A DNA stretch of 64,000 nucleotides from contig JANLFY010000007.1 in NCBI GenBank assembly GCA_024653485.1, positions 62,001-126,000 of the forward strand. The letters run 5' to 3'. The notes under the pieces are model-generated. The model had not been told where the DNA came from, did no database searches, and saw only the letters and a program-made list of their open reading frames with translations. The stretch comes from Bacillota bacterium (lineage in GTDB: Bacteria; Bacillota; SHA-98; UBA4971). Position numbers and translations under genes: made by a program. The stretch's first letter is position 1; every line of letters begins with the position of its first letter. Positions 33,198 to 55,383 of this stretch are shown here, piece after piece.

Positions 33198-36100
33198 ATG
33201 AGAGCCAGTTTTCCGCGCTCGACACGTTACGCGGCGGCTCTGACAATCCTGGCTGCGGTGCTTCTGGCGGTAGTTGCAAGACCACTTTCAGCCGACAGCG
33301 CCGATACGGGGTACCTTCACGTATACGTAGAGGAACGAGTCTGGGCGCCTTCCGAGCACCCATCGGTGATAGTACGTGGAAAGGGCTCGAGCAGGGTGGA
33401 CCTTGAGGTCTGGAAGTTCGACCCCGCGAAGCAGTATGAGGAGCACGGGTCGCTCAGCTCTGTCGCGGAGACTCTGCCTCGGGGCGAGGCCGTGCTCGTG
33501 AAGGAGATCACCCAGTATCCACGGCCGGAGAAGCAGGGCGAGGACTTCACGCTCGAGGTGCCGATTGCCACCGAGGGAATCGCGGGCTACGTTGTAAGAG
33601 TCAGCGACAACAAGGGTCGCGAGGACGCCACGTGGATCCTCGTGACCGACTTGGGTCTAGTTACTAAACAAGCCGATGACAAGCTCGTGGTATACTCCCA
33701 TACCTTTACCAGCGACGTTCCCTGCGAGCGTGCGCAGGTGACCGTGTTCAGCGAGGGCCGGGAAGTAGGGCGTGGCACCACAGGACATGACGGCGTATGG
33801 GTCCTGAGCACACCGGACCTTCCGAGGAATCTTACGGTAGTTGGAACGTTCGGCACAAGCTTTGCGCAGGTGACATCGTCGTACTACTGGGAAGACTCGA
33901 GGTACAAAGCATACATCTACACAGACAGACCTGTGTATCGTCCAGGCCAGAGAGTGTTCTTCAAGGGCATCCTCAGAAAGGAAATGGACGGCGAGTACGA
34001 GGTCCTCCGCGAGGAGCCGGTGACCGTGGAGGTCCGCGACGCGGTAGATGCGTGCATTTACAAGTTCGAGACCACGACGAACGGTTATGGCTCTTTCGTC
34101 GGAGAGGTGGTGCTGGGAGACGAGCCGTCCCTTGGAACCTACCGAGTGCTCGCGACGGTGAGAGGAAGCACGCACTCGGGCATGTTCAAAGTGGCGGCTT
34201 ATCGCAAGCCTGAGTACCAGGTACAGGTGAAAACGTCAAAGACCACGTATGTGGCGGGAGACGAGATCGAGGCCAAAGTGAAGGCGACTTACTATTTCGG
34301 CGCGCCGGTCCCCGGAGCGAAGGTTCGGTACGCGGTCTACTCGCAACCTCACGAGCTTCCGTACTACTTGCCGGAGGATCTAGGCTACTATCCAGAGGGT
34401 GACACGGATCTCGGTTACTACGGAGAGCTGGTGGCGTCAGGTGAGACCGTCACCGACGCGCGCGGGTCGGCGACGTTCGACGTGAAAACGGGTCCTGCGG
34501 ATACGACGCGCAGAATGTTCATCGAGGCGGTCGTGACAGATGAGAGCAGACGTGAGGTCACGGGCAGAGCCTCGGTGATAGTGGCACGGGGGTTGTTCGA
34601 CCTGAGCGTGCAGCCGGTTGCGTACGTGTTTGAGCCAGGACAGCCCGTCAGCGTGAAAGTGAGAGCCGAGACGATGGAAGGCAGGCCGCTCGCAACGCTC
34701 CTCAAGTGGCAGGCCATGCGCGAAACGTGGGAGGGCAGGAAGGCGAAGAGGTGGAAAGAAGCCTCGGGCGAGCTCCGCACAGCGGCGGACGGGAGAGGGA
34801 GTCTTGAATTCAAGCCTCGCGACGAAGGAGCGTACGTGGTTGAGGTCGTCGGCAGGGATGCTCGTGGTAACCGAATAGCGTCTGAAGCGTACGTATGGGT
34901 TGCGAGCGGGGCGGGTCGCTGGCCAAGTTACGGCGGCCCTGAGATTGAGATCGTCACCGACAAGGATGTGTATAACGTAGGCGACACGGCAAGAGTCCTT
35001 GTGAACACTGTGTTCGATGACGCGTGGGCGCTCGTGGCCGTCGAAGGGCGCGACATCACTTGGCACGAGGTGGCGCACATCGAGGGGCACACCAAGCTGT
35101 TCGAAGTGCCGGTGACGCGGCAGCACATGCCGAACGCGTTCTTCACCGTCACGGTGGTCCGCGGCAAGAGGCTTTTCTCCAACGAGAAGCCCATCTACGT
35201 GTCGACCAAGGACAACTATCTAAACGTGGTCATCATGCCCAACAAGGAGACGTACGAGCCCGGTGAGAAAGCAACGTACGTGGTCAAGACTTGCGACGCG
35301 ACGGGACGCCCTGTGCAGTCCGAGGTGTCGCTCGGAGTCGTCGATGCATCCATATATGCGATCTCGCCGGAAATCGCGCCCGACATCAAGAAGGTGTTCT
35401 ATGGATCCATCTGGAACAGGGTCGTCACGAACTACTCGTTTCCCGAATGGTACTATGGAGGCGCGGACAAGGACGGGGGATCCGCTGAGATTCGGAAGGA
35501 CTTCGAGGACACGGCGTTCTGGAACCCCACCATCATAACGGACAGGAACGGCACCGCGAAGATAGAGTTCACGATGCCCGACAATCTCACCACGTGGCGC
35601 GCGACCGCCAAGGCGCACACGATGAAGACTCAGGTGGGTTCGGCAACCCGCGACGTGGTGGCCACGAAGGACATGATCGTGAGGATCGCCACGCCCAGGT
35701 TCTTCACGTTGGGAGACAAGACGGCGGTCACGACCGTGGTACACAACTACACTGGGCGCAAGAGTGTCGCGAAAGTCGCCATGCGAGCAAAGGGGATCGC
35801 GCTCGTGGACGCCGGAGAGCGCGTGGTCGAGTTGGCTCCGATGAGCCAGAAGTCCATCGACTGGCGGGTTGAGTGCGAAGAGGTGGGAGACGCAAGCTTC
35901 GTAGCGTCCCTCCTGGACGATGACGGCCGAGTGAGGGACTCCATGGAGCAGACCGTGCCCGTGCTCGCCTTCGGAGTTCGCCACGAAGTTCACGAAGCAG
36001 GTGAGAGCGGCGACGAGAGGGTCGTGCGGTTCGACGTGCCTGAGAACGCCCTTGCGGGCACGGTGAAAGCCAAGCTGAGGCTCGCGCCCTCCATCGCGGC

Positions 36101-38345
36101 CACGGCTCTCGGGGCGCTTGAGTATCTGGCGTCCTTCCCATATGGGTGCGTGGAGCAAACCATGAACTCCTTCCTTCCCGACGTGGTCGTGTCACGCGTC
36201 ATTCGCGAGCTCGGGGCGAAAGCGTCAGGGGTGGAAAAGGACCTTCCGAAGATGGTCTCTGCGGGTCTCGCCAGGCTCTACCGCTACCAACACTTCGACG
36301 GCGGTTGGGGTTGGTGGGAATACGACGAGACGGATCCGAGGATGACGGCGTACGTGGTGTACGGCCTCGACCTTGCGCGAAAGGCCGGGTTCGACGTGGA
36401 CGAACGGGTTCTGGCTAGGGGGAAGGCTGCCCTCGCTGAGCTGATCAATGAGCCCCGCAACGTCGATGACCTGGTATACGAGCTCTTCGTCATGTCCGAG
36501 GTCGGTGCGAGAACCCTGCCCAGGCTGAATGAGATGGTCTCGAGGAGACGCGAGCTGTCCGAGTACTCGCTCGCACTCCTCGCGTTGACCCTGCGCAAAC
36601 AGGGCAGGGTGAGCGACGCCCGGCTCGTGCTGAAGGATCTGCTGGCAGCGGCGCGCGGCGACGGTCTGCGGACGTACTGGGACGCCCCGGACGGGGAAAG
36701 GCGCTGGGCGGACAACCGCGTGGAAACGACGGCTCACGCTCTGATGGCGCTGCTCGCGGTGGATCCCAAGAACGAGAGGATACCTAGCGTCGTGCGATGG
36801 CTTGCGGATGCGCGACAGGGTGTGGCGTGGTTTTCCACCAAGGATACCGCAGCAGCGGTGTTCGCACTGGCCGAGTACATCAAGCTGCGCGACGAAGTGT
36901 CGCCCGACTATACAGCGGTGGTTCGCATGAATGGAAAGGACATCGGCAGGGTGCGTTTCACCGCGAAGGACGTTTTCGAGAAAGAGGTTGAAATCGTGGT
37001 GCGCCCCACAGAGATCGTGCGCGGCGCGAACGTGCTCACGATCTCCAAGGATGAAGGGAGAGGCAGGCTATACTATGCTTTCTCGTGCGAATACCACACC
37101 GCTGCGGAGACCGTTTCGCCAGTTGCCAATGGCGTGGCGGTTGTCCGAGGCTACTACAGGCGGTTTCCCGCCCGACAGGCCGCAGGCGGGACAACAGGAG
37201 CAGTGGGCGGGGGGCTCATAGGAGGTGGCGGCGCGTCGCGGGCGCACGCCGACCACAGGGGAACAGACGTCGGCCTTGGGGACAAGACAAGTCACGTGTA
37301 TGAGCCCGTAACCGGACCCGTGAAACCCGGCGAGGAAATATACGTTCGCATAACCATCAGGGCGGACAGTCCATACACCTATGTGATCGTGGAGGATCCG
37401 CTACCGTCGGGATTCGAGGCATCAGACGAACCTGTAGATGCGTACAGCTGGGACTTTTGGTACGGCAGGAAGGAAGTGCGCGACGAAAAAGTGGCCTTCT
37501 TCAGCGGGTACCTGAGGAAAGGCGAGAACGAGATAGTGTATCCCATACGGGCGGAACGGCCCGGGACGTACAGGGTAATGCCGACTCGGGTCTGGGCGAT
37601 GTACTCCCCTGAGGTCTTTGGACAATCAGCAAGCTCGACGATATCTTGCGTTGAACCTGTCCTCGCAAGCTTCTCTACGCTTCTCAAGGATCCCGAGCGC
37701 AGCCGGAACCATAACATCACCCTGGCTGCGGCGGCGGTCGATGGTGTTGTGCTCCAGCCGGGCGAGGAGTTTTCGTTCGACCGCGTCGTGGGTCCGAGGC
37801 TCGCGGAGACAGGGTACAAGGAGGCCCGTGTAATCTCCGGAGGCCGGAGCGAACCGGGGATCGGCGGCGGGGTGTGCCAGGTGTCGACGACCCTCTACAA
37901 TCTGGCGCTGTTGGCGGGGCTGGAGATAGTGGAGCGGCATCCACACTCCAGGCCGGTGGATTACGTCCCGCCAGGGCTCGACGCGACAGTGGCGCAAGGC
38001 CAGTGCGATCTCAAGTTCCGTAACACGCTTGGCGTGCCAATCACCTTCTCGGCGCAAGTGGACGGGGGCAGGCTGGTCATGGAGGCGAGCGGGCGGCTCC
38101 TGAAGCCGCCTGAAGTCAGTGTGACCACGGAGATCCTCAAGACCGAGAGACCGAGGCTGATCGGTAGCCCGAGCGGAGCGGCTCCGGGAGGAGCGGAGGG
38201 GCCCGCGGCTTCCGTGAATGGAGGGGAAGACGGAATCCGTGTAGCCGTGTGGAGGAGTTTCAGGCTTGATGGCGAAACCACAAGAGAGCTGGTATCAGAG
38301 GACTACTACAGACCGGTGCATGCGGTGGCTTCGGCCCTGCATTAG
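33198..38345 (+). CDS. Bacterial alpha-2-macroglobulin fused to a C-terminal VanW domain
   Basis: A 1715-residue secreted protein with a signal peptide (residues ~1-33). It has a chain of macroglobulin beta domains (TDRPVYRPGQRVFFKG near residue 245; bait region toward the middle; FWNPTIITDRNGTAKIEFTMPDNLTTWR as the A2M domain), then the thioester site YGCVEQ with C984 and Q987, and the alpha/alpha barrel (FDGGWGWWEYDE). A late beta domain (VEDPLPSGFEA, ~1400) follows. Residues ~1490-1635 are a VanW domain (LQPGEEFSFDRVVGPR, GGGVCQVSTTLYNLAL). Such proteins trap proteases by covalent thioester attack. No lipobox is seen. Fusion to VanW, a cell-wall associated domain of unknown activity, is unusual. 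The usual PBP1C partner is not adjacent. Confidence 0.92.
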   Translation: MRASFPRSTRYAAALTILAAVLLAVVARPLSADSADTGYLHVYVEERVWAPSEHPSVIVRGKGSSRVDLEVWKFDPAKQYEEHGSLSSVAETLPRGEAVLVKEITQYPRPEKQGEDFTLEVPIATEGIAGYVVRVSDNKGREDATWILVTDLGLVTKQADDKLVVYSHTFTSDVPCERAQVTVFSEGREVGRGTTGHDGVWVLSTPDLPRNLTVVGTFGTSFAQVTSSYYWEDSRYKAYIYTDRPVYRPGQRVFFKGILRKEMDGEYEVLREEPVTVEVRDAVDACIYKFETTTNGYGSFVGEVVLGDEPSLGTYRVLATVRGSTHSGMFKVAAYRKPEYQVQVKTSKTTYVAGDEIEAKVKATYYFGAPVPGAKVRYAVYSQPHELPYYLPEDLGYYPEGDTDLGYYGELVASGETVTDARGSATFDVKTGPADTTRRMFIEAVVTDESRREVTGRASVIVARGLFDLSVQPVAYVFEPGQPVSVKVRAETMEGRPLATLLKWQAMRETWEGRKAKRWKEASGELRTAADGRGSLEFKPRDEGAYVVEVVGRDARGNRIASEAYVWVASGAGRWPSYGGPEIEIVTDKDVYNVGDTARVLVNTVFDDAWALVAVEGRDITWHEVAHIEGHTKLFEVPVTRQHMPNAFFTVTVVRGKRLFSNEKPIYVSTKDNYLNVVIMPNKETYEPGEKATYVVKTCDATGRPVQSEVSLGVVDASIYAISPEIAPDIKKVFYGSIWNRVVTNYSFPEWYYGGADKDGGSAEIRKDFEDTAFWNPTIITDRNGTAKIEFTMPDNLTTWRATAKAHTMKTQVGSATRDVVATKDMIVRIATPRFFTLGDKTAVTTVVHNYTGRKSVAKVAMRAKGIALVDAGERVVELAPMSQKSIDWRVECEEVGDASFVASLLDDDGRVRDSMEQTVPVLAFGVRHEVHEAGESGDERVVRFDVPENALAGTVKAKLRLAPSIAATALGALEYLASFPYGCVEQTMNSFLPDVVVSRVIRELGAKASGVEKDLPKMVSAGLARLYRYQHFDGGWGWWEYDETDPRMTAYVVYGLDLARKAGFDVDERVLARGKAALAELINEPRNVDDLVYELFVMSEVGARTLPRLNEMVSRRRELSEYSLALLALTLRKQGRVSDARLVLKDLLAAARGDGLRTYWDAPDGERRWADNRVETTAHALMALLAVDPKNERIPSVVRWLADARQGVAWFSTKDTAAAVFALAEYIKLRDEVSPDYTAVVRMNGKDIGRVRFTAKDVFEKEVEIVVRPTEIVRGANVLTISKDEGRGRLYYAFSCEYHTAAETVSPVANGVAVVRGYYRRFPARQAAGGTTGAVGGGLIGGGGASRAHADHRGTDVGLGDKTSHVYEPVTGPVKPGEEIYVRITIRADSPYTYVIVEDPLPSGFEASDEPVDAYSWDFWYGRKEVRDEKVAFFSGYLRKGENEIVYPIRAERPGTYRVMPTRVWAMYSPEVFGQSASSTISCVEPVLASFSTLLKDPERSRNHNITLAAAAVDGVVLQPGEEFSFDRVVGPRLAETGYKEARVISGGRSEPGIGGGVCQVSTTLYNLALLAGLEIVERHPHSRPVDYVPPGLDATVAQGQCDLKFRNTLGVPITFSAQVDGGRLVMEASGRLLKPPEVSVTTEILKTERPRLIGSPSGAAPGGAEGPAASVNGGEDGIRVAVWRSFRLDGETTRELVSEDYYRPVHAVASALH

Positions 38346-46313: not shown

Positions 46314-46862
46314 ATGGATGACCTGGATTACGCGGTGCAGATGCGGGAGCTACTGAGGAAGCTCGTTCGGGGGATCGGGCTGCTCGACCGCGAAGACGCC
46401 GAGTGTTGCGGGATGACATTATCCCAGTGTCACGCGCTTGGTGAAATCGCGGCTGACGAAGGATTGACCGTTGGCGAGCTCGCCGGGCGGCTGTGCGTGG
46501 ATCCAAGCGCGGTGACGAGGATAACCGATGCCCTCGTCCAAAGCGGGCTTCTGAAAAGAGCGGGAGACCCAGAGGATCGCAGGCAAGTGAGGCTACACCT
46601 TACAGCCGAGGGAAAGGCGCTCTGGGAGGATACGCAGAGGGTGATGGCTGAAAGGGCAGGCGCTCTGGCGAGACGGATCCCCGTAACGGAGCGCGAATCG
46701 GTACTCACGGCGCTCGAACGTCTCGTGGAAGCGCTGGGCGATGAGGGTTATCTGCTTAGGTCGTGGGCGAAAGGAGGATGTCAGGGTGGAGGAGAGCGAA
46801 AAGGAGCGGAAGCTGGAAAGGGAGATCCTTGCTCGATACGAAGCCGTGGCGAAGAGGTTTGA
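46314..46862 (+). CDS. MarR-family transcriptional regulator with N-terminal cysteines
   Basis: A ~182-residue winged-helix repressor. The recognition region reads LTVGELAGRLCVDPSAVTRITDALVQSGLL and the wing is RAGDPEDRRQVRLHLT, both classical MarR. Before the DNA-binding domain lies DAECCGMTLSQCHAL with C31, C32 and C39, which could bind a thiophilic metalloid or sense oxidants. ATG at 46314 follows GGGAGGTG by five bases; the longer frame from 46008 covers the promoter. It overlaps the following arsM-like gene by 77 bases in another frame, and a palindrome sits in its own promoter, so autoregulation is likely. Confidence 0.88.
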   Translation: MDDLDYAVQMRELLRKLVRGIGLLDREDAECCGMTLSQCHALGEIAADEGLTVGELAGRLCVDPSAVTRITDALVQSGLLKRAGDPEDRRQVRLHLTAEGKALWEDTQRVMAERAGALARRIPVTERESVLTALERLVEALGDEGYLLRSWAKGGCQGGGERKGAEAGKGDPCSIRSRGEEV

Positions 46863-48186
46863 GGAAGACGCGGCGAGTGGTTGCGGATGCGGTGCGTCGG
46901 CGGGCGGACCGGAGGAGTCCGGCGGGGCTGCGAGGTGCTGCTCGAGCGGGCCCAAGGTCACGGGCAGTTGCTGCGACGGGCGCGGTGCACGAGAAGGATC
47001 GGGCAGCGGACTGAGGGGCGCGACGCGTGATGCGACGCGCTTGGATACTAGGGAAAGCGGCTTGGGATGCGCGCGTCTCGATTCGTTGATTGAGCTTTAC
47101 CCCGGGGAGGTTCTCCTGGACATCGGGAGTGGACCGGGACTCGAAACCTCGAAACTCGCGCGGCGAGTGGATCCGGCTTGGGCTTTCGGCCTGGACCCTG
47201 TCGCCCGCATGGTCAAGGTGGCATCGGAGAACGCGCGGAGGATGGGCGTAAGGAACGTGTCATTCCTGAAAGGATCGGTGGAGGACATCCCCTTGGCCGA
47301 CGAGAGCGTGGACGTTGTCGTGTCAAACTGCGTCATCAACTTGGCCATGGATAAGGAACGCGCCATGCGAGAGGTGTTGAGAGTCCTTCGCCCCGGCGGG
47401 CGTTTGACGGTGGCGGACACTGTTTGGCTGGGTGCCCCTTCCGCAAGCGTCAGGGAGAGCGCCCAGGCATGGGCATCGTGCATAGGTGGGGCGCTCGAGG
47501 CGGATGAGTACCCCGGCATTCTCGCAAGGGTCGGGTTCGAACACCCGAGGCTGAAGGTCTTGCATGCAGCAGACGCCTCGGCCTCTTCGGGGTGTTGTGA
47601 GCCAGGGTATTGCGGGTCGGCCGCAGGGCAAGACGATGACGAAGGTCGCGCGGAAGGCGGCACAAGGAGCGTTTGCGGTTGCACCCTCCCGCCTGAAGCG
47701 CCCGCGCTCGCGAGCGCTCTCGTGACCGCGGAAAAGGGCGGTTTCCCCGACGGGGCCGTCAAGATACGAAGGGCAGAGCCAGGGGACCTCGGCATCGTCG
47801 TCCGCATCCTTGAAGCGGCCGGGCTGCCCGTGGCGGGCGTCCAAGAGCATTTCGGCGAGTTCATGGTTGCCCAGGCGCCGGACGGCACGATCACGGGAGC
47901 AGCTGGCCTCGAAGCACACTCGTCCTCGGCTCTGCTGAGGTCCGTGGCCGTGCTTCCTCGCTGGCGCGGTACGGGAGTGGGCCGACGCCTGGTGTCTACG
48001 CAGCTCTCGAGGTTGGCCAGCGGAACTCACGTGTACCTGCTCACGACGACTGCGGAGGCGTACTTCCGTTCGTTTGGGTTTGAGAGGATCTCAGCGGAGG
48101 ACGTTCCGGAGGAACTAAGACAGTCTCGTGAGTTCCAGGGGGCGTGCCCACAGTCCGCCGCGGTGATGCGCCTCGTTCTGTCGTAA
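46786..48186 (+). CDS. ArsM-like arsenite methyltransferase fused to a GNAT acetyltransferase
   Basis: A ~466-residue fusion. Residues ~105-250 are a SAM-dependent methyltransferase (LLDIGSGPG at ~110-118, PLADESVDVVVSNCVINL). The SNCVINL motif (C182) and CIGGALEADEYPGILARVGF (C232) match the As(III)-binding cysteines of ArsM. The N-terminal part and the mid-linker (~260-305) are rich in Cys (GCGCG, CC, CGC). Residues ~325-466 are a GNAT domain with the acetyl-CoA loop RGTGVGRRL, resembling ArsN-type acetyltransferases. Predicted role: methylation and further modification of arsenicals. GTG at 46786 follows AAGGAGG by eight bases, inside the end of the MarR gene. Confidence 0.85.
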   Translation: MEESEKERKLEREILARYEAVAKRFEEDAASGCGCGASAGGPEESGGAARCCSSGPKVTGSCCDGRGAREGSGSGLRGATRDATRLDTRESGLGCARLDSLIELYPGEVLLDIGSGPGLETSKLARRVDPAWAFGLDPVARMVKVASENARRMGVRNVSFLKGSVEDIPLADESVDVVVSNCVINLAMDKERAMREVLRVLRPGGRLTVADTVWLGAPSASVRESAQAWASCIGGALEADEYPGILARVGFEHPRLKVLHAADASASSGCCEPGYCGSAAGQDDDEGRAEGGTRSVCGCTLPPEAPALASALVTAEKGGFPDGAVKIRRAEPGDLGIVVRILEAAGLPVAGVQEHFGEFMVAQAPDGTITGAAGLEAHSSSALLRSVAVLPRWRGTGVGRRLVSTQLSRLASGTHVYLLTTTAEAYFRSFGFERISAEDVPEELRQSREFQGACPQSAAVMRLVLS

Positions 48187-48577: not shown

Positions 48578-50545
48578 GTGGTCGTCATTCAGGCAACCCA
48601 GATATCCAAGTCGTTCGGGACAAACCAGGTGATCTCGGCAGGATCGTTCAGGATCAGGGCCGGCGAGAAGGTCGGGTTGGTCGGGCGGAACGGCGCCGGG
48701 AAAACTACCCTCCTAAGACTGATCGCGGGGTTGGAAGCGCCTGACTCCGGCGAGATCGTGGTGGCGCCGGACGTGCGGCTAGGGATCGTTGAACAGGATC
48801 CATCTTTCGACCCGGGGGCATCCCTGATAGAGGTGGTGTACGACGGCCTTCGCGAGCTCACCGAGATGGAGAAGGACATCGCGCGACTGTCTCGCGAGAT
48901 GAGCTCGCCCGAAGTCGCGTCGTCCCCCAGACGGTTGGACAGGGTGATGCGCGAGTTCGCTGCCGTCACGGAGGAGTTCGAGAGGCGGGATGGATACTCC
49001 ACGGACAGCAGGGTGGCCGGGGTGCTGGCAGGCCTGGGGTTTTCCCGCGAAGACCGTTCCCGCCCCGTCGGCAGCTTCAGCGGAGGCGAGAGGACGAGGA
49101 TCGCGCTGGCGAGGGCGCTCATAGCCCGACCCGATGTGCTTCTGTTGGACGAGCCCACCAACCACTTGGACATCCCGTCCACGTCATGGCTCGAGGATTT
49201 CCTCGCGGAGTACGAAGGCGCAGTCGTGGTCATCTCTCATGACAGGCAATTCTTGGATTCCGTCGTTACGAGGCTCCTAGAGGTGGAGGACCACAAGATC
49301 ATCGAATACGCGGGGAACTACTCGTGGTATGTCGAGGAGAAGGGGCAGAGGCTCGCGCAGCAAGAAACTGCATATGAGCTCCAGCAGAAGGAGGTCGCGA
49401 GGCTGGAGGGCGCGCTCAAGCACTACACAGCCCTCTCGGCCAGGAACAACAAGTTCGCGAGACGTGCGGAGGACATCCGAAAGAGACTCGCGCGCATGGA
49501 GCGCGTAGAGAGGCCGATCCTGAAGCGGAGGAGCATGGGCTTCTCCGTGTCGAGCTCGGGGCAGAGCGGAGAGTGGGTCCTGAAGGCCAAAGGGCTTACC
49601 ATGACGTTCGGCGACCGCGTCCTGTTCAAAGACGCAGACATTGTGGTGAAGCGAGGCGAGCGCGTCGGGATCGTCGGCAGGAACGGTGTTGGGAAGTCCA
49701 CCCTCCTGCACCTCATCACCGGCCGCAAGGAACCGTCGGCTGGAACCGTGCGCATCGGGACGGGCGTTTCGGTGGGGTACTACGATCAGCAACACGCTGA
49801 CCTTGCGCTCGAAAGGACCGTGCTCGAGGAGATGATCGGGTCGACCGGGCTCGCGCCGCAGCAGGCACGCGACCTCCTAGGACGCGTCCTCTTCAGGGGC
49901 GACGACGTGTTCAAGCGAGTCGGCGACCTGTCGGGGGGCGAACGGAGCCGGGTCGAGCTCGCGAGGATAATGGCGCTGGGATGCAACCTGCTCGTCATGG
50001 ACGAGCCCACGAACCACTTGGACATCGATTCCATAGAGGTCCTTGAGAGGGCGCTCGCGGCATACGAGGGCACGCTTCTAGTGGTATCGCACGATAGGTA
50101 CTTCCTCGAGAGGACGGTCGATAGGATCATCGAGATCGAGGAAGGCCGGATCGTGGACTACCCTGGAGGGTACGCATACTATGTCGAGAAGAAGGTCGCT
50201 CGCGAGACGAGCGCCAGTGACGTGCCCGAGATTTCGCGTGGGAGGGATGGCGCGGCGGAGAGGACGAGGACGTCGAACAAACAACGCGCAACCTCGCGCC
50301 AGCCGAAGGACTCGCGGGATCGCCCAGATGCGGGAAGCGCCGATCACGACCAAGAGGCTGCAGCCATTGAGAAGCGCATCATGGAGCTGGAGGATGTCAT
50401 CAAGCAGCTCAACGCGGAGCTCGCGGACCTCGAGATATACCTCCATCCCGAGCGAATGGCCGAGAGGGCCAAGGCGCTGCGAGACGCGGAAAAGGAGCTC
50501 TCCACGTATTATAGGAGGTGGGAGGAACTAGTGTTCACCCGGTAG
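48578..50545 (+). CDS. ABC-F family ATPase (Uup/YdiF-like)
   Basis: A 655-residue soluble protein with two ABC domains and no membrane part. Domain 1: Walker A GRNGAGKTT (~residues 36-44), FSGGERTRIALARAL, LLDEPTNHLDIP. Linker: charged helical P-site interaction motif around residues 250-310. Domain 2: GRNGVGKST, LSGGERSRVELARIM, MDEPTNHLDID. The C-terminal ~80 residues form a coiled coil after a basic, low-complexity linker (~560-590). ABC-F proteins act at the ribosome exit site in translation quality control, or give antibiotic resistance. GTG start; spacing from GGAGGGAG is about ten bases. Its last 18 bases overlap the end of the converging barrel gene. Confidence 0.9.
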   Translation: MVVIQATQISKSFGTNQVISAGSFRIRAGEKVGLVGRNGAGKTTLLRLIAGLEAPDSGEIVVAPDVRLGIVEQDPSFDPGASLIEVVYDGLRELTEMEKDIARLSREMSSPEVASSPRRLDRVMREFAAVTEEFERRDGYSTDSRVAGVLAGLGFSREDRSRPVGSFSGGERTRIALARALIARPDVLLLDEPTNHLDIPSTSWLEDFLAEYEGAVVVISHDRQFLDSVVTRLLEVEDHKIIEYAGNYSWYVEEKGQRLAQQETAYELQQKEVARLEGALKHYTALSARNNKFARRAEDIRKRLARMERVERPILKRRSMGFSVSSSGQSGEWVLKAKGLTMTFGDRVLFKDADIVVKRGERVGIVGRNGVGKSTLLHLITGRKEPSAGTVRIGTGVSVGYYDQQHADLALERTVLEEMIGSTGLAPQQARDLLGRVLFRGDDVFKRVGDLSGGERSRVELARIMALGCNLLVMDEPTNHLDIDSIEVLERALAAYEGTLLVVSHDRYFLERTVDRIIEIEEGRIVDYPGGYAYYVEKKVARETSASDVPEISRGRDGAAERTRTSNKQRATSRQPKDSRDRPDAGSADHDQEAAAIEKRIMELEDVIKQLNAELADLEIYLHPERMAERAKALRDAEKELSTYYRRWEELVFTR

Positions 50546-53464
50546 ACCGGGTACCGCCCGATCCCATCCAGACACCAGAAGCAGCGTGAGATATGGTCCC
50601 GGCTGCCAAAGGCCTCCGACAGCAGCAGGATGCGACCCCGCCAGAGGCACGCGATAGCCTAGCACCAGTCGCGCGTGAGGGGAGATGTCGCACGCAGCTC
50701 GGGCCTCCAGTGCCGCTACGGATAGGTCTCCAGGACGTAGGTGCGTCCAGGACACTCCCGCGCCGAGGGATAGTCCTGGTGCCACCCGGCGTTCGAGGTG
50801 CGCCGCTGCCGACTGAGTCACGGTGGAGGCAGGCACGGGCGGAGAATGGTCGTCGATCCGCTTGAGCGAGAAGGTCCCTGACGCGGACGTCGCCTGGTCG
50901 AGCGCCACTGAGCAAGAGAGGGATAGGGAGAGCTTTCTCTTCGTATGCAAGTGCTCGGGGCGGCTCACCTCGCTTTGGCAGGTGAGCCTAGCCACCGGCT
51001 CAAGGCGTCCCGGAAGGGCGATGCCAGCCTGCATCGAGACAGATGAAGCGCTGGGCTCGAAGGAGGCGTCAAGATCCGCGTGCCACGAACCACCGCCCAG
51101 GGCATCTCCCCCGACGAGCATCGAACCTGTGAATCTCCGGTTCGCTGTGTCGTACTGGCCGACCATGGAGAGGCGAGCCTTTCCACTAGCCAGGTACCGC
51201 ACTTGGAGAGTCGACTCTGCCGCGCTGTCGGTCGGTCCTCCTTGCGTAGCGGAGGTACCGATGTGCCGACGGTGGGTCAATGAAAGGCTGAGACCGCCGC
51301 CGAGAGGAAGGGAGAACGCAAACTCGGCTGCGGGGTGCGAGGCCCCCCGCAGGGACAGTCGCCCCGCGACCCCCGATTGCATCGCGAGGGTGGCGCTCAC
51401 CGTGGGATGGACGAGTATGGCCTCACCGCTCTTGGCGATGTCCACGCCCGTTGCGATGGTCAGCCCATCGGCAATGGGCGCTTCCCAGACCCCGGACAGC
51501 TGAGGCAACCCCTGGGTCGTATCGTAGCTTGCCCCCAAGGTGAGACCCCGCACAGGTGTGGCATCCATCCCCACGCGAAGGGCGGGGAGCCCGGAGCTTG
51601 CCCCGGATGCCAAGGATAGCCCCGCGGTGAACCTGACGTGCCGTGCTATGGGGGTGACCAGGGTCGCGAGCCCGGAGAATGCGGATTCTTGCTGCGGCGC
51701 TACAAGCCGGTCCATCATCTCACTGCTCGTTGCGGCCCAGCTCATGCGGCCTTCGCTGCTCAGGCTCAGCTCAAGGCCGGTTTTGGCACGGGCAGCGACA
51801 CTGCCCTCCGCATGCAATGAGGTGTATTGCAGACCCATCTCCAAGGTGACGGACTCCGCTCCAGCTAACACCCAACTCGGCGACGCGGTGGCAGCGTCTG
51901 CCTCAGACTGGTCGGAGGGTTGCAGCGGAATGTCAAGCCGCACGGTCTCACCCGGGGCGATGCTCACCACAATCATGGTCGTCCGCGGCTCCCAGCCTGG
52001 CGGGAGAGTCCGCTCGTCCACCCGAAGGACGTGGTTTCCGGGGGACAAGCCCCCCAGCACGACTAGTCCTCCGGCGTCGGACCTTGTAGACTTCGCGCCG
52101 CCCGCCCATACGAGCACTCCTTGTGCGGGCTCATCCGTCCGCGTCATCCTGCCGTCCCGATCGCGATCGATGAAGACCCGGCCGACGACGGCTCCTCGGG
52201 CGGATTCAGCCGCGGCGTCGATGCCCAGTCGAACGACGGCCTCCTCCGATCTCAGGATGAACTTGCCAAGTGCAGCCGATGCACGCGCGCGCAGCACGCG
52301 GTCGCCAGAGAGCGCGTCCGGCCCAACTATGGCCTTGAAGGAGAAGTTGACGGAGTCCCCTCCCGGTATGGCCCCGAGATCCCATGAAACGCCGGTCGTC
52401 GTGGGGATAGTCAAGGGGACCGTAGCCGTTCGCCCGCCCTTGCCATCATCGAAGGCACAGGTCTCATTGACTGAGCGGACCCCCTGGGGGAGTTCGAACT
52501 CGACTCGTGAGTGCGCCAATTCGGACGTGCCGGCGTTCCGCAGGCGAGCTGACACGGTCACGATGTCGCCGACGGTGGCTGATTGTGGATGGGAGCTCAC
52601 GGAGAGCTGCAGCATCGTTCCCAAGTCGTAACGCGGGCCCGCTTCTCCCGTCGGCCGTTGAGGGCTGCGCGCGCCTCGCCGCACGTTGATGTAACCTCCG
52701 GCTATTATATATAGCGAGCTCGTGATTGAGTACGAGTACACGCCGTCAGGGACGGGCACGCCAGCCATGTCCCTCCCGTCCCACGTCTCTTCGTACCAAC
52801 CATCAGGCGGTCGCGGAAAGGATCGCGTGAGCACCACTCTGCCAGTGGAATCGAATACCTGGACCGTGACGTATGGGTACGACACGCGCGAGTAGTAGTA
52901 CCGCACCGTGGCGACCTGATGAACGTCTGGGTCGAAAGGGTTTGGATCCACGTACGACGTCGCGAGCGTTCCGAAGCTGGTTGTGTACACGAGATCACTC
53001 CGGTACTCCGCTTCGCCGGCTAGAGCCGGGGCATCGTAGCCTACGCTCAGCCGGTAGTCCATGGCTACGATGCCACCGTTCACCGGGCCGTCGGTGACCA
53101 ACGTCACCGGGGCAGTGGCGCATTTCTGAAACGGTGCGGGTTGCCCGTTCAAGCGGGCGGCGAGCTCGAGGCTGCCGATGGGGAAGGTGGGACCACCTTC
53201 CCCGGCCCTGAAGTCTCCGGTAGCGGCGACGCTCAGGTTCCAAGATCCCGCCCTTTGCGTCTTCACCGCGATGTACACTGCGTCAGAGACCGTGCGAGGC
53301 GGCGACTCTGGGCTCACCTCACCGAAATGGATCCCGCCTTCTTCCATTGTCATCTCGAGGGTAGGTTGAATAGCCTGAGTCGCCGCTTGCGGCTGTAGCA
53401 TCATCGCCGCTGCCATGCACAGGATGGATCCCGCGAGTGCGATACGCTTCGACCCGGTGGCCAT
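50528..53464 (-). CDS. Putative secreted multidomain beta-barrel (usher-like) protein
   Basis: A ~978-residue protein, not recognised as a known family. Residues ~1-30 form a signal peptide. ~35-165 is a beta-sandwich resembling the small secreted protein two genes upstream. ~185-255 is FlgD-like (VFDSTGRVV, WDGRDMAGVPVPDGVY). ~285-400 resembles DUF11. ~425-512 is a CarboxypepD_reg/SdrD-like domain with DRDRDGR. From ~535 to the end there are many alternating polar/hydrophobic strands (LTLGASYDT, LSLSLTHRRHIG, ARLVLGYRVPL) as in outer-membrane barrels. C-terminus is not a simple aromatic. ATG at 53464 is eight bases after the preceding stop. A pilus usher analog or an adhesin are both possible. 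Confidence 0.6.
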   Translation of the reverse strand: MATGSKRIALAGSILCMAAAMMLQPQAATQAIQPTLEMTMEEGGIHFGEVSPESPPRTVSDAVYIAVKTQRAGSWNLSVAATGDFRAGEGGPTFPIGSLELAARLNGQPAPFQKCATAPVTLVTDGPVNGGIVAMDYRLSVGYDAPALAGEAEYRSDLVYTTSFGTLATSYVDPNPFDPDVHQVATVRYYYSRVSYPYVTVQVFDSTGRVVLTRSFPRPPDGWYEETWDGRDMAGVPVPDGVYSYSITSSLYIIAGGYINVRRGARSPQRPTGEAGPRYDLGTMLQLSVSSHPQSATVGDIVTVSARLRNAGTSELAHSRVEFELPQGVRSVNETCAFDDGKGGRTATVPLTIPTTTGVSWDLGAIPGGDSVNFSFKAIVGPDALSGDRVLRARASAALGKFILRSEEAVVRLGIDAAAESARGAVVGRVFIDRDRDGRMTRTDEPAQGVLVWAGGAKSTRSDAGGLVVLGGLSPGNHVLRVDERTLPPGWEPRTTMIVVSIAPGETVRLDIPLQPSDQSEADAATASPSWVLAGAESVTLEMGLQYTSLHAEGSVAARAKTGLELSLSSEGRMSWAATSSEMMDRLVAPQQESAFSGLATLVTPIARHVRFTAGLSLASGASSGLPALRVGMDATPVRGLTLGASYDTTQGLPQLSGVWEAPIADGLTIATGVDIAKSGEAILVHPTVSATLAMQSGVAGRLSLRGASHPAAEFAFSLPLGGGLSLSLTHRRHIGTSATQGGPTDSAAESTLQVRYLASGKARLSMVGQYDTANRRFTGSMLVGGDALGGGSWHADLDASFEPSASSVSMQAGIALPGRLEPVARLTCQSEVSRPEHLHTKRKLSLSLSCSVALDQATSASGTFSLKRIDDHSPPVPASTVTQSAAAHLERRVAPGLSLGAGVSWTHLRPGDLSVAALEARAACDISPHARLVLGYRVPLAGSHPAAVGGLWQPGPYLTLLLVSGWDRAVPGLPGEH

Positions 53465-53472
53465 TCGCACCG

Positions 53473-54732
53473 TCACCCCTTGACCTGGACTCGGATGCCG
53501 CTGCCGACCACGAAAGCAGTGGAAGCCGAGACCCCTTCGCCCTCCCACTGCAATGTCGCCCTGGCCATATAGTACCCGGGGGACAGTGTCCCTGGCCAAG
53601 TAACGCGGACGACTGTGTGGCACCCTTGCGCGGGACTCGCACCCTGAAGCGCGACCACTCCCACCCGCTTCATCTGGTAGTCCCAGATCTCCACGTAGCC
53701 CAGGGGATCGAGGAGCGCGTCGGGGAGCGCGCCGGAGGGGACTTCGAGCACGACCTCCATCGGAAGGCCGTGCCCTTCACTTACGACCGGCACGCCCAGG
53801 CGAGCTATCCTAGGTGTGTCCAAGCGTTCGCCCCCGCTTGAGGCAGCCGGGCTTCCCCTCAGCTCGACGTGGGTGGAGGCCACCGCCACGCCTCGCTCGA
53901 CCTTGAACGCGATGAGCGCGGAGTCCGCCGGTCTACCAGCCGTTGAGAGACGGACCTCCGCTATGTAGGTGCCTGTTCGGAGGCGCTCTGCGTCGATGAG
54001 GCCCGTCAGAGCACGCGTATATCCAGGTAGACACGTGGCTGACGCCAGAGCGCCTTGGGCAGCGACTCTCCCACCACCGTCTCTGAGGAGAAGCAACCCG
54101 GACAGACTCGCGTGAATCGCGCCCGTGTTCTCGCACTCGGCTGTGACCCGGATGCGGCCTCCTCCGGTATCTCCTTCCACTGTCAGAGACTTGAGCACGG
54201 CCTCGGCTTGCGGAGGGGCCGTCGCGCCGCTGGGAGACACGGTGAGAAACGTGAGCACCGCCACTTGGGAGGCGGCGGCAACTATGCTCCCATGCTCGAG
54301 GTTGTCGGCGCGCCTCGCCCGGAACAGGACGACGGGGTACGCGCCGCCGGTGAAACCGCTCCTCGAGTGGACGCGGGCGTACACTGGTCTAGAGCCACCA
54401 GGCGGCAGCAGGAACTCCACAGGATCGAGAGTCAGGTAAGCGTCAGCGGAAGCCGGATCCGTCACCTCGCGGTGCAATGGCACTCCAGCCTTGTCATGCG
54501 CGCCCAGCCCACACGTTCCACGCACCTCAACAGGGAACGTTCCTCGATTGGTGACGAGCAGCGGACCGATGGTGTCGCCGTCCCTCACGGTCGCCGTTAT
54601 GCTCGCTGGACTGACGCGAATCGAAATCCCCTGTGATTCGGCCCGCGCAGCCACGGTGGAGACGATGCTCGCGCAAGCAAGTGCAACAAGCGCCGACTTT
54701 GCGTTTCTCGCACGTGTCATCAGGGTGCGCAC
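53473..54732 (-). CDS. Putative periplasmic chaperone-like beta-sandwich protein
   Basis: A ~419-residue secreted protein of unknown family. Signal peptide covers residues ~1-33 (hydrophobic AKSALVALACASIVSTVAARA). The mature start GISIRVSPASITATVRDGD followed by GPLLVTNRGTFPVEVR looks like the first strand pair of PapD-type or DUF916-type chaperones. A second part has repeated Ig-like strands (EYENTG-like VTAECENTGAIHASLSGLLLL; GTYIAEVRLSTAG; GYYMARATLQW). GTG at 54732 has GGAGTGATC upstream. It lies between the pilin-like gene (84 bases before) and the barrel gene (8 bases after), so all three are probably one operon. Confidence 0.6.
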   Translation of the reverse strand: MRTLMTRARNAKSALVALACASIVSTVAARAESQGISIRVSPASITATVRDGDTIGPLLVTNRGTFPVEVRGTCGLGAHDKAGVPLHREVTDPASADAYLTLDPVEFLLPPGGSRPVYARVHSRSGFTGGAYPVVLFRARRADNLEHGSIVAAASQVAVLTFLTVSPSGATAPPQAEAVLKSLTVEGDTGGGRIRVTAECENTGAIHASLSGLLLLRDGGGRVAAQGALASATCLPGYTRALTGLIDAERLRTGTYIAEVRLSTAGRPADSALIAFKVERGVAVASTHVELRGSPAASSGGERLDTPRIARLGVPVVSEGHGLPMEVVLEVPSGALPDALLDPLGYVEIWDYQMKRVGVVALQGASPAQGCHTVVRVTWPGTLSPGYYMARATLQWEGEGVSASTAFVVGSGIRVQVKG

Positions 54733-54816
54733 GTGGATCACTCCTTCACCCACAGTAGCTCATCTGCGTCGATCATCAGTTCATCGCGTCCACCACGCGC
54801 TGTACGCGCGCTGCGC

Positions 54817-55383
54817 TCAGTATGTCTGAGCCGCGAGGTACGTCACCTCGATTCTGTACGAGTGAGCCGGGTCAGAGAGAGCTTGGTCGTCGTAGCTCAC
54901 CTTCTGCCGGAAGATCACGGACACGCTCGTGCCTGCGGAACCCGTCGGCGGCATGCCCGACGCGACCACCGCATCGTTTCCGGAGATCGGCGCGAAGTCA
55001 GCTCCGTCACTCCGCTTCCATTCGAGCGGCGCGGCGAGGGTGTGGGGGGAGGGCGAAGCGTAGCCTGTTCCCGTCCACTGCTTCATGCGTCCGTCCTGAG
55101 CGTCCGAGCGGATCTTGAGCGCCCACGGCGCGTTCGAGCGCACGGTCACGACTTGCGGTGCGGACAGCGCAGGAGGCGCGGCCACGTCGAGGTTCCCAAG
55201 GCTGACCGGACCCGGGAAGGACGCCTCGAGAGCTGGCACTACCTTGCATGTAACGGGAACGGTCGCTTGGTTAGAGGCCCCGGCGTTCGCCGGGACGCTG
55301 AGCTTTGCCGTAGTTGTTGCGGCGATGGTGAGCGAGACCGTGGCGACGACTGTCACTCGTCTGACACGAGAGCGGAAGTCCAT
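54817..55383 (-). CDS. Secreted pilin-like / coat-protein-like beta-sandwich protein
   Basis: A ~188-residue exported protein with a signal peptide ending near VPANAGA (~residue 36). The mature part is a single beta-sandwich: FPGPVSLGNLDV, VTVRSNAPWALKIRS, LEWKRSDGADF, SVSVIFRQKVSYDD and a last strand YRIEVTYLAAQTY. This pattern (paired V-x-V strands, W in the middle, and a YxIxVxY end) is that of spore coat protein U/CsuA-type pilins or WxL proteins; no WxL motif was found. ATG at 55383 follows GGTGAT. First gene of the three-gene minus-strand operon; it resembles the N-terminal domain of the barrel protein. Confidence 0.6.
   Translation of the reverse strand: MDFRSRVRRVTVVATVSLTIAATTTAKLSVPANAGASNQATVPVTCKVVPALEASFPGPVSLGNLDVAAPPALSAPQVVTVRSNAPWALKIRSDAQDGRMKQWTGTGYASPSPHTLAAPLEWKRSDGADFAPISGNDAVVASGMPPTGSAGTSVSVIFRQKVSYDDQALSDPAHSYRIEVTYLAAQTY

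Follow-up and report, generated by a model that had tools for sequence, protein, structure and literature searches.

Background

In monoderm Firmicutes, WxL gene clusters encode a small WxL protein, a large WxL protein and a WxLIP protein (DUF916-DUF3324), and AlphaFold predicts for these clusters a WxL sandwich that is completed by a strand from WxLIP (PMC10599100). For archaic chaperone-usher systems the published range comprises Proteobacteria, Cyanobacteria and Deinococcus-Thermus (PMC4654587). In the Bacillus subtilis TasA/TapA fibre, TapA is reported to act as a strand-complementing chaperone (PMC10151520).

We report on three genes, here referred to as P1, P2 and P3 in transcription order, in a stretch of 64,000 nucleotides (the window) from a member of the Bacillota. 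Our data suggest that they probably encode a chaperone-assisted donor-strand surface fibre, which is anchored or exported by a barrel protein other than an usher.

The locus shares with WxL clusters the three-gene make-up, the similarity of P2 to WxLIP over two Ig domains and a W-x-L/I motif, carried by P1 as well as by the first P3 domain. Unlike WxLIP, however, P2 is without a C-terminal membrane helix, P1 is not detectably a WxL protein by profile (two W-x-L motifs and a PF13731-type domain were not found), P3 has its subunit-like domain at the N-terminus together with a putative barrel, and the host is diderm. Likeness to the Csu, CupE and ECP chaperone-usher systems consists in the order subunit, chaperone and (putative) barrel, in the donor-strand-type fold predicted for P1, and in the homology that connects P2 with the chaperones of usher operons and, by way of these, with EcpB; in contrast, P3 has no usher homology and, in this genus, no plug, and SCPU, PapD_N and Usher gave no Pfam match here. 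Among solved structures TasA comes closest to the P1 model, but the TasA/TapA fibre has no outer-membrane component, P1 has no Pfam match to TasA (camelysin family) and the locus neighbours are not SipW/TapA. Finally, usher-like four-gene operons of other diderm Bacillota, described below, have a chaperone homologous to P2, subunits related to P1 and a prealbumin-type domain as in P3, whereas their 930-1020-aa proteins are distant ushers with a plug and P3 is not.

Gene order and conservation

The three open reading frames proposed in the first-pass annotation are all present, with the coordinates, strand and sizes given in Table 1. Each predicted protein has a signal-peptide-like N-terminus, and the 8-base gap between the P2 stop and the P3 start fits translational coupling. 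In all five other members of the genus P2 is located between P1 and P3, with identities of 70-74% for P1 and 46-56% for P3; because of this same-genus identity and the kept order we consider the three to be genes and not chance frames.

Table 1. Features of the P1-P2-P3 locus and of related loci. Positions without a locus name refer to the window.
Feature	Position	Strand	Description
P1	54817-55383	minus	188 aa, secreted, fibre-subunit-like
P1 residues 42-52	55228-55260	minus	candidate donor strand, unpaired in monomer model
P2	53473-54732	minus	419 aa, GTG start, secreted, chaperone/WxLIP-like, Ig-type domains
P3	50528-53464	minus	978 aa, modular, putative C-terminal outer-membrane barrel
P3 residues 31-168	52961-53374	minus	P1-like (subunit-like) domain; hhalign with P1 family
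P3 residues 199-250	52715-52870	minus	FlgD Ig-like; Pfam FlgD_ig E 1.3e-9, above cut-off
P3 residues 285-384	52313-52612	minus	DUF11-like Ig; Pfam DUF11 E 1.3e-4, just below cut-off
P3 residues 443-515	51920-52138	minus	prealbumin-type (CarboxypepD_reg/SdrD_B-like); Pfam and profile match
P3 residues 526-978	50531-51889	minus	putative beta barrel; low-confidence AF2 model
P3 residues 956-961	50582-50599	minus	GPYLTL, last-strand motif; resembles BamA-recognised beta-signal
P1-like/P2-like pairs of Omp85-less genomes G039 and G222	L146:2234-3760 and L120:7758-9821		
Long P3 relatives with GPY...GSE.I.VE.RD segment	L048:6604-10791, L049:945-5099, L165:2950-6129		
Usher-like operons	L147:5421-10849, L153:4410-8810, L154:274-5657, L157:5374-11159		
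Further usher-like operons	L158, L159, L163, L166, L168		

The same gene order, which the first-pass annotation had proposed to look for elsewhere, recurs in other genomes. Neighbourhood comparison revealed it in G007, G013, G015, G016 and G031 as well as in G225, which belongs to another family, and G014 has a compatible order with the genes on two contigs; the arrangement thus spans the genus, two more families of the class and two more distant families (G031, G225). P3 is longer in the class-level relatives, roughly 1380-1830 aa. In five sister genomes (G006, G008-G011) P1 and P2 are adjacent and P3 is not beside them, which implies that P3 either is no absolute requirement or has its gene at another site. 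Genes for D-Ala-D-Ala carboxypeptidase-like and thioredoxin-reductase-like proteins are neighbours common to the relatives, as are V-ATPase-like genes within the family, and this shared neighbourhood suggests vertical inheritance at one locus. Other neighbours in the window are ABC-F and enolase-superfamily genes.

Host envelope

The host genome encodes Omp85 (PF01103, E 9e-55), as do nearly all members of the class, and with BamA/Omp85 present the host is a diderm; the outer membrane assumed in the first-pass annotation is thereby borne out. SpoIIE is encoded in the window, which supports that the host is a spore former. Of 250 Bacillota genomes sampled evenly across the phylum, 64 had Omp85 over the cut-off, among them 21 of the 22 carriers of P1 (Fisher p 4e-13) and 31 of the 32 carriers of P2 (Fisher p 1e-20), noting that the genomes are related and the trials not independent. 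Single-membrane strains carrying the genes had been named as an argument against the proposed system; the strains carry an outer membrane. G222 is the sole Omp85-less exception for both P1 and P2, and its P2-like protein has a transmembrane helix.

As a separate observation, the Omp85-less genomes G039 and G222 both have a P1-like gene next to a P2-like gene whose product has a transmembrane helix at its C-terminus, and P3 is not nearby.

P1, a subunit-like protein

P1 matches nothing above cut-off in Pfam or NCBIfam and the PDB sequence search returned nothing useful; the same applies to P2, for which DUF916/DUF3324 stay below the Pfam cut-off. Pfam has no family for P1 or P2; in P3, FlgD_ig, DUF11 and CarboxypepD_reg/prealbumin-type domains appear.

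The AF2 model of mature P1 (pLDDT 78, pTM 0.70) is an Ig-like sandwich in which mature residues 1-18 are unpaired and without structure in the monomer. The candidate donor strand shows alternating hydrophobic residues (V42, V44, C46, V48, (P50), L52), and the alternating N-terminal pattern is conserved as judged from column hydrophobicity in 17 sequences; in the model this free strand looks as expected of a donor strand. Using Foldseek, the nearest PDB structures were TasA and its relatives (best E 8e-4), followed by Caf1, FimG, FimI, Csu and CupE subunits, and with TM-scores of ~0.5 or below the resemblance is at the level of fold class. The predicted fold, similar to donor-strand fibre subunits, agrees with the earlier description of P1 as pilin-like.

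Profile-profile comparison links P1 to the subunits of the usher-like operons (prob 76, E 2e-5). No direct profile match to FimA-type pilins was obtained, the WxL domain gave prob 0.4 (hhalign, mature chains), SCPU had no match for P1 and none in the host genome, and there was no Pfam match to the TasA family among 17 P1 proteins. By sequence, P1 and the first P3 domain contain a W-x-L/I motif, corresponding to only the first of two W-x-L motifs. A signal between P1 and WxLIP was rejected as spurious: it arose with signal peptides left on, and the comparison was redone on mature domains.

P2, a WxLIP- and chaperone-like protein

P2 had been described as PapD/DUF916-like, and profile comparison indeed groups it with DUF916/WxLIP proteins and fimbrial chaperones. 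Against WxLIP (DUF916-DUF3324) the mature chains gave prob 80-93 and E 4e-7 to 1.5e-5 over ~200 columns (hhalign; prob 95 when signal peptides were included), and the homology spans both domains. Against the chaperones of the usher-like operons the values were prob 99.8 and E 1e-29, compared to prob 8 and E 0.004 for FimC-type chaperones (hhalign). Given these profile matches to both sides, P2 appears to belong to a superfamily holding both WxLIP and fimbrial chaperones.

A survey of membrane segments showed that the C-terminal membrane helix is absent from P2 and its diderm relatives and present in all P2 homologues examined from Omp85-less genomes (9/9). On the sequence evidence P2 is a distant homologue of WxLIP without a membrane anchor.

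Usher-like operons in diderm Bacillota

By following weak PF06030 matches we reached operons with one or two subunit-like genes, a ~260-aa chaperone and a 930-1020-aa protein in G022, G035, G068, G106, G140, G169, G179, G251 and others (Table 1). Their chaperones reach prob 96 against WxLIP and prob 87 against E. coli EcpB (hhalign), and for one of them the NCBIfam pilus chaperone model gives E 0.0012. The long proteins match E. coli ushers with prob 88 over 299 columns including the plug, and PF00577 misses them in the genomes covered by both searches. Many matches in the usher-profile search are single shared domains; counting near-full-length ones only, usher-like proteins are present in 10 of the 250 genomes, all with Omp85. 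Judged from sequence comparison, these operons apparently represent archaic-like chaperone-usher systems outside the reported range. SdrD-like domains, which the first-pass annotation had held to be absent from ushers, do occur in related diderm Bacillota within usher-like proteins.

P3, a modular protein with a putative barrel

The first domain of P3 is homologous to P1 (hhalign prob 98.9, E 1e-17, 132 columns), and the P1 profile picks up a P1-like domain in most P3 proteins. The same domain matches WxL with prob 39 and E 3e-4 over 121 columns (hhalign). It is followed by the FlgD Ig-like domain, the DUF11-like domain (AF2 pLDDT mostly 60-80) and the prealbumin-type domain, which matches the C-terminal domain of the usher-like family (profile prob 97.6). 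The PDB sequence search with P3 gave only FlgD, and Foldseek on the P3 model mainly SdrD/pilin-type modules.

For the C-terminal ~450 residues AF2 predicts ~20-23 antiparallel strands of 7-15 residues each, with pLDDT mostly <50; this model, made with six sequences, is too poor for a barrel claim. Hydrophobicity alternates strongly in this part, as in strands, with z 4 to 8 in homologues (up to 7.7), compared to z 3 for the Ig part and 2.7 for FimD, and since FimD itself scores low the amphipathicity test is weak evidence for a barrel. Most P3-type proteins have a GPYVRL-like last strand of the GxxPhixPhi type near the C-terminus. These model-based features are consistent with, and not proof of, a putative membrane barrel. 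Of the barrel proposed in the first-pass annotation the barrel-like traits therefore stand, with the barrel itself not proven by the poor AF2 model; a soluble fold, the alternative considered there, is not predicted either, the model being too poor to decide.

P3 has no Pfam match to ushers and reaches prob 5 or less against them (hhalign), PF00577 is absent from the host genome, and a plug-like segment was found neither in the window's P3 nor in the genus. Within the putative barrel of long P3 relatives lies a conserved segment, GPY...GSE.I.VE.RD...Y.IDY, which is absent from the window's P3 and has a weak likeness to the FimD plug (prob 13).

Proposed model and alternatives

In the reading that we favour, P1 would be a subunit whose Ig-like sandwich is completed by a partner's strand. 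P2 would act as a soluble periplasmic chaperone of WxLIP/PapD type, completing P1 until polymerisation, and the strand insertion predicted for WxLIP provides a precedent for strand donation by a P2-type protein. Subunits would then join via their N-terminal strands. P3, held in the outer membrane by its C-terminal barrel, would provide the base of the fibre through its P1-like domain, and strand exchange with this domain would attach the first P1. The barrel would anchor and possibly export the fibre. Our data hence support a system that works like a chaperone-usher pathway; the more specific assignment to Csu-type chaperone-usher systems is not supported, given that P3 is without usher match (Pfam, profile-profile), has a subunit-like N-terminal domain and lacks a plug in the genus. 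The kinship that the first-pass annotation had passed over is the one with the WxL/WxLIP system.

The locus could instead encode a WxL-type surface complex of a diderm and not a polymer, which we consider unlikely. P2 would bind the WxL-like P1 and the first P3 domain and hold them on peptidoglycan, and P3 would display the complex at the outer membrane or tether it there, perhaps as a link between this membrane and the wall. This would suit the homology of P2 to WxLIP over both domains, a gene content that mirrors the WxL cluster (PMC10599100), the WxL match of the P3 domain and the W-x-L/I motif in P1 and this domain, but not the score of P1 against WxL, the missing second W-x-L motif, the C-terminal position of the WxL domain in large WxL proteins as opposed to the N-terminal one in P3, or the match of P1 to subunits of usher operons.

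That P3 is a true usher of a very divergent archaic chaperone-usher system, with eroded barrel similarity, strikes us as quite improbable in view of its scores against ushers, the lack of a plug-like segment in the window's P3 and a P1-like N-terminal domain, which is not a known usher feature. Homology of P2 to the chaperones of usher operons and the weakly plug-like segment of the long P3 relatives argue for it, as does L113 in G096, where a P2 homologue is paired with a 1044-aa protein that matches the usher-like family (prob 98.5, 246 columns), mostly in prealbumin-type domains and the preceding segment; the match that P3 shares with usher-like proteins is, however, the prealbumin-type domain, a common module. 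The five sister genomes without an adjacent P3 and the Omp85-less G222 and G039, where P2 is anchored, would also fit an autonomous P1-P2 pair with which P3, as an unrelated outer-membrane protein (adhesin or porin), is only co-transcribed; considering the P1-like domain in P3 and the recurrence of the three-gene order in several families, we give this very little credence.

Implications

Under the favoured fibre model it is possible, and we suggest it tentatively, that the locus stands for a class of its own among outer-membrane fibre assembly systems, relying on a chaperone related to WxLIP and on a barrel without a plug, whose own subunit domain serves as the base. Such a system would be an evolutionary link from WxL clusters to chaperone-usher pili, with the chaperone's anchor absent where an outer membrane is present. 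We found no description of the P1-P2-P3 arrangement, or of ushers in diderm Firmicutes, in the open-access literature, and export by a non-usher barrel, if shown, would define a new class. How the chaperone-usher pathway arose is unclear. One chaperone superfamily would comprise anchored WxLIP proteins in genomes without Omp85 and, in diderm Bacillota, both soluble P2 proteins with a barrel partner and the chaperones of unrecognised ushers; this span makes a common strand-complementing ancestor of Gram-negative pili and Gram-positive WxL complexes testable. The change of surface fibres upon gain or loss of an outer membrane likewise becomes testable.

Other gene clusters and genes

The host genome has a second cluster with a P2-like protein (L110:5830-13393; G000:C4 about 75.8-83.4 kb), which encodes two secreted proteins, one of 623 aa and one small, together with a ~670-aa tandem P2-like protein, a secretin (PF00263, E 4e-44) and what may be an outer-membrane protein. 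The tandem P2-like and secretin-like core recurs in G027, G055, G092, G128, G154, G187, G201, G211, G225 and G235, and the cluster may represent a secretin-dependent relative of the P2 chaperone family.

Elsewhere in the window, positions 33198-38345 (+) encode an alpha-2-macroglobulin-like protein of 1715 aa that has a VanW domain close to its C-terminus, and a 481-aa open reading frame at 46741-48186 (+) combines, as judged by eye, a cysteine-rich methyltransferase (arsenite methyltransferase-like) with a GNAT acetyltransferase domain.
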